From: Deltaproteobacteria bacterium
GTDB lineage: Bacteria > Desulfobacterota > DSM-4660 > Desulfatiglandales > Desulfatiglandaceae
Reading direction: 5' to 3'
Assembly (NCBI GenBank): GCA_021737785.1
Contig: JAIPDI010000024.1
Span: 1 to 64,000, forward strand
Length of the DNA stretch: 64,000 nucleotides
This document shows positions 4,263-6,220 of this stretch, one piece after another. The position numbers and the translations under genes are program-made. Below the pieces are notes generated by a model, which did no database searches, was not told where the DNA came from, and saw nothing but the letters and a program-made list of their open reading frames with translations. Each line of letters begins with the position of its first letter. The stretch's first letter is position 1.

Positions 4263-5858
4263 TTATGCCATCCAGATCGATGCCAGATAAGAGTCAGTGA
4301 AATCAACCATGATCCGCGGCTGGTTCGTCTTGATGTCCCAAGAAACAAAGCAGGCCAGGAGGTCATTCAGGACCTCCTCTGCCACCTTCAATTCCTCAGA
4401 CACGGCCCGGCGGGCCTCCTTCACAGTGCCGGCAATCATCCGGTGCAGCTTCAGAGAGGCATCCAGGGTCCTCAACCGGGGAGACCCCTGGATCTGTTCC
4501 ACCGCCTCCTCCCAGTGAATTCCGGCGATCTTGCGACGCAGGACATAGGCATTCCCCCTGTCCCGGATGGTCAGCAGCGGAAGATTCACATTGAAGCTAG
4601 TATTCTGGATCCGCCGGCCGCGCATCTTCCCGTCCATCTCTGTCAACAGCGTCTCCTTTTTTTTCAGATCCGGGAGCTGTTTTGCCTGAATTCGTTCGAA
4701 GATGCATGGTTGACCGTCAACATCGATTTCCTTCAATCGGGTGGGATCAAACCCGAGATCCATGAGGTTGCCGATAGTCAACACATGATTGCAGGCGTTT
4801 CTCTGCTCCTCCAGCCAGGTTGTAAAGCTGGGTCTCTCGTAATTGGGGAGCCCCTCGATGAAACGCGCGGGATGTCTTTTCAGGGTCTCCGGAAGACGGT
4901 TCCACAGTTTCATATCCCCATCTACAAGATTGGGACCGTTTCCCAGATCGTAGGGCGCATAGGACTGTGCCTGCATTCGGGCGACTTCAGGCGCCAGGGT
5001 GATCTGTTCCAGGGAATCGCCCCCGGTATATCCGATCAGGGACTCGATGCGTCGTCTGAAGGCGATGAACTTGGTTATGAAACGGGTGAACATGAACCGC
5101 ATCAGGGGCGTGGATTCCCCTCTCTTGAGTTCGTCTCCAAAATAGGTCATCAAAGCCGAATGGAGGCCCTTGAATTCTTCGATGGTGCGTTGGACCATGA
5201 TCTGGTTATCCCGCATGTCGATAAAGGTCTGTTTTCGGCGCAGGTGGTGCAGCAGCTTCAGGACCGGTCCTTTCAGGTCCTTTCCTTCCAGACCCGGGGG
5301 CGTAAAGATCATGTAGTAGTGCCGGTCTGCCAGGGCAGAGTTCCCGATGATACTTTCCGCCGGTCTCCACGATTGTTTCAGGTAAATATCATATGTGGGG
5401 TCTTCCTCGGGGATGATGTTGTCCAGGATCCCGACCGCTGACCTTCTGATCAGAAACTTCTTGAAGTGCTTCAGTATCTGTGTGCCTAAACCCTTTCTTC
5501 TGAACGGCGCCCCCACCTCGACATAGACCAGATAATAACAGGGAACCGGTTTCCGAAGATAGACCATGTTCAGCCGACCCAGATTTTCGCCGGTCTCTGC
5601 ATTGACCTCGATCACCCGAAAGCCATTCTTGGAATCTTCGGGTTTGAGCCGGTTGATCCTGCTCCCGGAAACGGTCTTATTGACGAGGTCCCAGAGATTG
5701 TTGAAGAGGTCCGCCACAATGGGCGATTCAGCGGATTTCATTCGCATCCCTTCGTCAATCAAACTGATCAGCCCGAGCCTTTCGTTGAGGCCCAGGTCTT
5801 TCCGGGCAGCGTCCTCATTATCGGAAATCATGCTCTGAGGCAAATTGTTTCTCATCAT
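4263..5858 (-). CDS. GNAT-domain protein of unknown function
   Basis: A 531-residue protein. Residues about 70-170 form a GNAT acetyltransferase domain; the acetyl-CoA-binding signature is GAPFRRKGLGTQIL (motif A, RxxGxG type). The remaining 350 residues are not recognised; they are rich in charged helices and lack membrane segments. Two adjacent ATG codons (5858 and 5855) follow the AGGAG site; the second has better spacing. The gene is monocistronic on the minus strand. Its leader carries a promoter, a Phe/Tyr-rich leader peptide and an intrinsic terminator (see those entries), so transcription is probably attenuated in response to charged aromatic tRNA. The substrate is unknown and need not be an amino acid. 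Confidence 0.75.
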   Translation of the reverse strand: MMRNNLPQSMISDNEDAARKDLGLNERLGLISLIDEGMRMKSAESPIVADLFNNLWDLVNKTVSGSRINRLKPEDSKNGFRVIEVNAETGENLGRLNMVYLRKPVPCYYLVYVEVGAPFRRKGLGTQILKHFKKFLIRRSAVGILDNIIPEEDPTYDIYLKQSWRPAESIIGNSALADRHYYMIFTPPGLEGKDLKGPVLKLLHHLRRKQTFIDMRDNQIMVQRTIEEFKGLHSALMTYFGDELKRGESTPLMRFMFTRFITKFIAFRRRIESLIGYTGGDSLEQITLAPEVARMQAQSYAPYDLGNGPNLVDGDMKLWNRLPETLKRHPARFIEGLPNYERPSFTTWLEEQRNACNHVLTIGNLMDLGFDPTRLKEIDVDGQPCIFERIQAKQLPDLKKKETLLTEMDGKMRGRRIQNTSFNVNLPLLTIRDRGNAYVLRRKIAGIHWEEAVEQIQGSPRLRTLDASLKLHRMIAGTVKEARRAVSEELKVAEEVLNDLLACFVSWDIKTNQPRIMVDFTDSYLASIWMA

Positions 5859-5897
5859 TCACTCCTGTGAACAGGATTTTTTTTCCGTCAAAAAAAA

Positions 5898-5923
5898 GGC
5901 GGAGCATGTGCTCCGCCTTTTTT
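5898..5923 (-). terminator. Intrinsic terminator inside the GNAT gene leader
   Basis: A 9-bp stem, GGCGGAGCA / TGCTCCGCC (5898-5917), has a 2-base loop and runs of T on both sides, so it can act in either direction. On the minus strand it is followed by eight T. It lies between the leader peptide stop (5950) and the GNAT start (5858). That position fits an attenuator rather than a gene-end terminator: the upstream minus-strand gene ends 450 bases earlier and a separate promoter lies between. Confidence 0.75.
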
Positions 5924-5949
5924 CATATGATTTTTTGCGAAAACACACA

Positions 5950-6018
5950 CTAAGGCATTCCGGCCCTCCGGCTAAAATAATAATAAAAAAAGTTCTTTAG
6001 TGTGTGCATGACGCGCAT
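5950..6018 (-). CDS. Aromatic leader peptide of a candidate attenuator
   Basis: A 22-codon ORF whose codons 10-15 are Phe-Phe-Tyr-Tyr-Tyr-Phe (5974-5991), ending in TAG at 5950-5952. It has a clear ribosome site (AGGAG at 6026-6030, 7 bases from the ATG). The codons for HTLK (5995-6006) can pair with 5944-5954 at the leader stop, forming a hairpin that encloses the aromatic run. This arrangement is the hallmark of leader peptides such as pheL in enterobacteria. Stalling at scarce Phe/Tyr-tRNA would break the hairpin. Whether a true antiterminator forms was not computed; a short complement, TGCCTT with AAGGCG, exists. Confidence 0.7.
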   Translation of the reverse strand: MRVMHTLKNFFYYYFSRRAGMP

Positions 6019-6038
6019 TCTTTTTCTCCTGGATTTTT

Positions 6039-6067
6039 TCTATATCCCAGATGACGAAGGTTGTCAA
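6039..6067 (-). promoter_or_regulatory. Promoter of the leader peptide/GNAT transcript
   Basis: On the minus strand there is a perfect -35 TTGACA (6062-6067), a 17-base spacer and a -10 TATAGA (6039-6044). The predicted start is near 6032, giving a leader whose ribosome site is almost at the 5' end. This is among the strongest sigma-70-like promoters in the window and supports the leader ORF being real. Confidence 0.65.
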
Positions 6068-6144: not shown

Positions 6145-6220
6145 GTCATTCCGGCATGCCCTCAGCCGGAATCCAGTCCCCCGTATTTCTGGATTCCGGC
6201 TGGAATCGTGCCGGAATGAC
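6145..6220. repeat. Palindromic intergenic repeat
   Basis: A 76-bp imperfect palindrome starts GTCATTCCGGCA and ends TGCCGGAATGAC, with inner arms GCCGGAATCCAG and CTGGATTCCGGC. It could fold into one long hairpin and resembles small MITE-like or REP-type repeats. It lies in the 513-base gap 5859-6371; apart from the attenuator described above, the rest of that gap shows no feature. Confidence 0.7.

Follow-up and report, generated by a model that had tools for sequence, protein, structure and literature searches.

A Predicted Phenylalanine/Tyrosine Leader-Peptide Attenuator Upstream of a GNAT-Family Gene in Desulfobacterota

The 64,000-nucleotide stretch of DNA analyzed here (the window) carries on its minus strand a leader region that very probably acts as a leader-peptide (ribosome-mediated) transcription attenuator sensing charged tRNA-Phe and tRNA-Tyr, placed upstream of a gene for a GNAT-domain protein. 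This reading is strongly supported by the computational evidence, and we give it a probability of about 0.93; from the same evidence, we infer that it regulates the gene in the cell. The attenuation mechanism is of the known, textbook kind, and the novel element is the regulated protein family. The attenuator provides functional evidence on a large, unannotated family and turns a gene listed merely as a GNAT protein into a testable candidate for an unknown aromatic step or control point.

Organization of the Leader Region

The elements of the attenuator and the gene that follows are listed below in the direction of transcription.

6067–6062, minus strand: −35 box TTGACA (read directly)
6044–6039, minus strand: −10 box TATAGA, with a 17-nt spacer from the −35 box (read directly)
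6030–6026, minus strand: leader Shine–Dalgarno sequence AGGAG (read directly)
6018–5950, minus strand: leader peptide gene, 22 codons, encoding MRVMHTLKNFFYYYFSRRAGMP and a stop (ATG at 6018–6016, TAG at 5952–5950)
6006–5995, minus strand: region 1 (CACACACTAAAG), the partner of region 2 (from folding)
5991–5974, minus strand: FFYYYF codons ttt ttt tat tat tat ttt, the putative sensing element
5972–5959, minus strand: apical hairpin with a GGAGG-like G-rich loop (around GCCGGAGGGCCGG), then an in-frame ATG-CCT-TAG
5954–5936, minus strand: region 2 (CTTAGTGTGTGTTTTCGCA), pairing through 5954–5944 with region 1 or through 5951–5936 with region 3
5923–5890, minus strand: intrinsic terminator GGCGGAGC-ACAT-GCTCCGCC with A tract and T run
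5917–5904, minus strand: region 3 (GGCGGAGCACATGC), the terminator 5′ arm plus loop (from folding)
5858–4263, minus strand: regulated gene, 531-aa GNAT-domain protein (start at 5858 or 5855)

The initial annotation had described most of this arrangement, and its description proved correct to the base. The TTGACA-17-TATAGA promoter is present, and a transcript start is expected near 6032. The 22-codon leader, its ribosome site and the six consecutive Phe/Tyr codons could be read directly, and the hairpin that had been placed at 5995–6006 with 5944–5954 is present in the minimum free energy fold, where CACACACTAAAG (6006–5995) pairs with CTTAGTGTGTG (5954–5944). The strong intrinsic terminator, annotated at 5898–5923, lies between the leader ORF and the structural gene; its stem-loop GGCGGAGC-ACAT-GCTCCGCC (5917–5898) has a folding energy of −22 kcal/mol and is followed by 8 T. 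Only one gene, that of the annotated 531-residue protein, stands downstream.

The leader region is more stable than expected by chance (z = −4.7, with 0 of 200 shuffles as stable). It is the single leader in the window with at least six aromatic codons in a run and a strong terminator after them, and 20 first-order Markov windows produced 0 comparable leaders. Searching the leader against Rfam gave no covariance-model match above the gathering score, known attenuator families included. Just upstream of the attenuator promoter, at 6145–6220 of the window, we observed an imperfect inverted repeat whose two 32-nt arms, one starting with GTCATTCCGGC and the other ending with GCCGGAATGAC, are 84% complementary and 12 nt apart. 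This repeat resembles dispersed REP-like elements.

Alternative Folds of the Leader RNA

Could the leader RNA switch between mutually exclusive hairpins? The initial annotation had suggested this check and contained no antiterminator. Folding revealed one, in which 5951–5936 (AGTGTGTGTTTTCGCA) pairs with 5917–5904 (GGCGGAGCACATGC) at a predicted −15 to −17 kcal/mol, excluding the terminator. When the RNA was folded to the end of region 3 with a ribosome stalled on one aromatic codon after another, the antiterminator was predicted for all six positions. In the naked leader, the 1:2 hairpin folds, followed by the terminator, and the antiterminator is absent; with the ribosome on the leader stop codon, no antiterminator is left either. 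With region 4 added to the RNA, the terminator was always more stable than the alternative, and consequently the switch must be kinetic, as is usual for leader-peptide attenuators. The predicted folds comprise all the states that Yanofsky-type attenuation would require.

The following course of events is proposed. When both charged tRNAs are plentiful, the ribosome would reach the leader stop codon and cover region 2, allowing the terminator hairpin (3:4) to form and transcription to end ahead of the GNAT gene. A shortage of Phe- or Tyr-tRNA would instead stall the ribosome in the FFYYYF run, where it would cover region 1, so that region 2 would pair with region 3 as the antiterminator and the polymerase would enter the GNAT gene. 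In the absence of translation, the 1:2 hairpin would leave 3:4 free, and termination would result as well.

The E. coli pheA (PheL) and pheST (PheM) attenuators likewise consist of a short translated leader with Phe codons and of an antiterminator and an intrinsic terminator that are mutually exclusive. The leader described here resembles them in its run of Phe (and Tyr) codons and in its mutually exclusive structures, whereas the terminator, the leader peptide and the controlled gene differ.

Conservation of the Leader among Relatives

Among 61 genomes, made up of the window's own plus 60 relatives, 27 have a GNAT orthologue. The leaders that could be read in these 27 genomes, 18 in number, all have the terminator core CGGAGC(A/G)CA(C/T)(A/G)CTCCG, the region-2 word AG(T/C)GTGTG and an aromatic run. 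A wider scan, covering one genome per species by exact peptide words that remote relatives may escape, gave 64 loci; nearly all carry titles such as Deltaproteobacteria, Desulfobacterales, Desulfomonile or Syntrophaceae, and a few just Proteobacteria, Pseudomonadota or uncultured bacterium. The protein occurred in 21 of 297 genomes sampled evenly across the phylum.

We examined 62 loci, 3 of which had too little upstream DNA, leaving 59 usable orthologues. A Phe/Tyr-rich leader, defined as a short ORF with at least five aromatic residues in eight at the matching place, was present in 42 of the 59; the absence of such runs from this place in relatives, which the initial annotation had named as a refuting observation, is thus not what is seen. 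A script detected the terminator hairpin in 40 of these 42 leaders (none for L086, which is doubtful, or L087), and the GCGGAGC-type terminator is kept in relatives. Furthermore, 28 of 43 leaders have a TTGAC(A) −35 box in the corresponding position. A clear adjacent leader was not found in 17 of the 59 orthologues; operon position, a leader placed before a metallo-beta-lactamase-fold (MBL) gene, or weaker leaders account for part of this shortfall. Eleven leaderless loci searched with Rfam yielded no T-box or other element, only tRNAs.

The RNA pairing is conserved further than the sequence. In distant leaders, the aromatic run is flanked by different residues and the terminator has another sequence, but region 2 is still complementary to the terminator 5′ arm; the two have changed in concert, for example, to TGCTGCTGCGCT with AGCGGAGCAGC (L100) and to CGCGTCTTCGCT with AGCGGAGCG (L095). 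Of 37 antiterminator duplexes, 27 beat shuffles at p ≤ 0.05 (median p 0.02), whereas the 1:2 hairpin, which reaches this level in 15 of 37, is less clear across distant leaders. In the 18 Desulfobacterales-type leaders, every one of the 144 antiterminator cells is paired. The changes in this close set are one-sided (C-G, U-G, U-A), and covariation is not above that of shuffled columns. The concerted change in distant leaders is a stronger argument than formal covariation, which is weak in the close set.

Might the nascent peptide itself, rather than codon counting by tRNA charging, be the sensor? A TnaC- or Erm-like arrest peptide, HT...FYFYFSRRxGMP, would sense a ligand inside the ribosome, and the strong conservation of the C terminus (S/T-R/G-R/G-x-x-M-x) in Desulfobacterales-type leaders is in its favor. 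On the other hand, the codons of this tail fall within the apical hairpin and region 2, and RNA structure thus explains its conservation; moreover, the peptides of distant orthologues are wholly different outside the run (ending in LLR, RLR or RRLS), while the F/Y run and the RNA pairing stay. We therefore regard peptide arrest as very unlikely and retain attenuation by tRNA charging, which the initial annotation had proposed and with which the anatomy, the stall folding and the leader conservation all agree computationally.

A further motif was observed in these leaders. Most of the Desulfobacterales type have a GGAGG-like stretch in a small hairpin right after the aromatic codons; overall, the motif is present in 32 of 43 leaders and is followed by an ATG in 17 of 43. 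In these 17, an in-frame ATG-NNN-stop lies 5–8 nt past the stretch, giving the look of a Shine–Dalgarno sequence plus minigene, a combination that is absent in Desulfomonile-type leaders.

A Proposed Phe/Tyr Attenuation Regulon

A covariance model built from the leader of the GNAT gene (R1) gave strong hits (E ≤ 1.4e-16) in 19 genomes, every one before the GNAT gene. This specificity bears on the idea that leader and terminator are the decayed remnant of an aromatic operon regulator after gene loss, with the GNAT gene a bystander. A single downstream gene that is not a textbook aro gene would be compatible with such decay. However, the leader–gene pair is kept across orthologues 51–75% identical and beyond, and the GNAT gene is independently present in aro/pheA operons, which makes a remnant extremely improbable compared with a functional attenuator of the GNAT gene.

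Weak R1 hits brought out a second class of Phe/Tyr leader, exemplified by MIISYQTWQNFYFYFYGRGMSMC and a stop, with a terminator of the type GCCGTGGGC...GCCCACGGC. Class-2 leaders stand before aroK-aroC, the aroF operon, an aminotransferase and the MBL gene. They are like the GNAT leader in the F/Y run, in terminator placement and, in many of them, in a GGGAGG stretch and an ATG near the end, and a class-2 model (R2) matches the window leader weakly (E 0.004). The terminator cores differ (GCCGTGGGC versus GCGGAGC), and, unlike the GNAT leader, class-2 leaders stand before classical aromatic genes and in many cases include Trp. Two leaders before aromatic genes were located in the window's own genome.

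L155:1613–1740, contig C17: class-2 leader MIFSYRSWQSLYSYFYFWGRGMPMC and a stop (Phe/Tyr plus Trp), before aroK-aroC
L155:3395–3520, contig C17: class-2 leader MSKRDWHKLYYYFFWCTGPPLV and a stop (Phe/Tyr plus Trp), before the aromatic operon that begins with aroF

The operon after the second leader reads aroF-aroB-pheA-tyrA-like-aroE-aroA. The GNAT attenuator is thus a third Phe/Tyr leader of this genome, and these results support the GNAT gene as a member of a Desulfobacterota Phe/Tyr attenuation regulon, alongside the aromatic biosynthesis operon. The regulon would thereby extend past the known biosynthetic enzymes. We found no report of Phe/Tyr attenuators in Deltaproteobacteria or Desulfo species in the open-access literature, and aro leaders may have been described earlier in subscription papers; the general attenuation papers PMC2965389 and PMC4833913 make no mention of Desulfo species.

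On the strand opposite the aroK Phe/Tyr leader, two loci have a short ORF with a WWW run, MNPGCKNILTTLSGYWWWHNSNREVCPTALM and a stop at about 1784 of L053 and MESERKQILATDLRNWWWRSSNREVCPPTLI and a stop at about 1753 of L059 (both on the + strand of the locus). These ORFs are possible Trp attenuators.

The Regulated Protein

The GNAT domain spans about residues 80–190, with the acetyl-CoA motif R-x-x-G-x-G at 120–125. The protein shares this fold and motif with other GNAT acetyltransferases (Pfam PF00583; SSAT, YpeA, TacT/AtaT) and adds to them an N-terminal segment and a C-terminal region of 340 residues. Conserved parts beyond the GNAT domain include GYTGG and GFDPTRL. Searches of Pfam, NCBIfam and PDB sequences found no relative of the conserved C-terminal 340 residues. 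The AlphaFold model of residues 188–531 is confident (pLDDT 88.5), and Foldseek with the whole model gave matches to the GNAT part only. With the C-terminal model, the best matches (E about 0.007, query TM-score about 0.17) were mostly to N-lobe segments of protein kinases or kinase-like proteins; a kinase fold for this half (window 4266–5297) is treated as unproven, the matches being short and including no kinase C-lobe.

Could the protein act on translation rather than on metabolism? If attenuation is real and the protein is a TacT/AtaT-like acetyltransferase of aminoacyl-tRNA or proteins, it might adjust translation in response to a shortage of aromatic aminoacyl-tRNA. AtaT and TacT, toxins that acetylate tRNA, are indeed among the top Foldseek matches of the GNAT part (E about 1e-3). 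However, acetyltransferases of spermidine, aminoglycosides and histones reach similar scores, and the similarity therefore shows only the general fold; moreover, no antitoxin-like partner was seen, and in relatives the gene is co-operonic with biosynthetic genes. A translational role is therefore a minority possibility, and the protein is most likely an acyltransferase that depends on acetyl-CoA and either takes part in aromatic amino acid metabolism or modulates it.

Association with Aromatic Operons and an MBL-Fold Partner

The initial annotation had held that the controlled gene is not an aromatic biosynthesis gene. This is right in that it is not a textbook aro gene, but aro/pheA/trpE operons of other Desulfobacterota contain its orthologues, and the gene is therefore not foreign to aromatic biosynthesis. 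Three such operons, each with no leader adjacent to the GNAT gene, have the orders aroD-aroE-aroA-aroK-aroC-pheA-GNAT (L111), DeoC-family aldolase-DHQ synthase II-pheA-GNAT (L112) and DHQ synthase II-pheA-GNAT-trpE-trpG (L116). The aroE, aroA, aroK and aroC genes of L111 were named by sequence reading and the other operon genes by Pfam; the DeoC-family aldolase of L112 is likely an ADH synthase. We also considered whether the GNAT protein fills a missing canonical step in its own genome. The aromatic pathway genes searched for there (aroK, aroC, aroF, aroB, pheA, the tyrA-like gene, aroE and aroA) were all found, so it need not fill a canonical gap.

The MBL gene provides another link. Several genomes, that of Delta proteobacterium NaphS2 among them, have it as a fusion with the GNAT gene, and most of the fusions have a Phe/Tyr leader. 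In L099 the two genes adjoin (MBL-GNAT), and in L124 they lie close together (GNAT-GlcD-GlcF-MBL). Of the stand-alone MBL genes, those of four genomes are preceded by Phe/Tyr-rich leaders, with none detected in others, and one MBL copy adjoins a DAHP-synthase-like gene identified by eye. The window's own genome yielded no close MBL homologue, and the open-access literature yielded nothing on GNAT with MBL and prephenate dehydratase.

Three independent lines, namely the family's own Phe/Tyr attenuator, its position in aro/pheA/trp operons and its fusion or adjacency to MBL, which in several genomes has a Phe/Tyr attenuator as well, together place it in aromatic amino acid metabolism, and from this association, we consider a role in phenylalanine/tyrosine (aromatic) metabolism probable. 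A narrower proposal, to which we give even odds, is that the GNAT protein, in some lineages with its MBL-fold partner, performs or regulates an unrecognized step of Phe/Tyr synthesis or recycling in Desulfobacterota, its own attenuator switching it on upon aromatic starvation.

At four loci (L156, L175, L176 and L177), the MBL-fold gene was also seen near genes of the 2-hydroxyacyl-CoA dehydratase type and/or the CoA-enzyme activase type, identities that Pfam/NCBIfam confirmed for L156 only. In L176 and L177, an enoyl-CoA hydratase-like gene lies near the MBL-fold gene as well.
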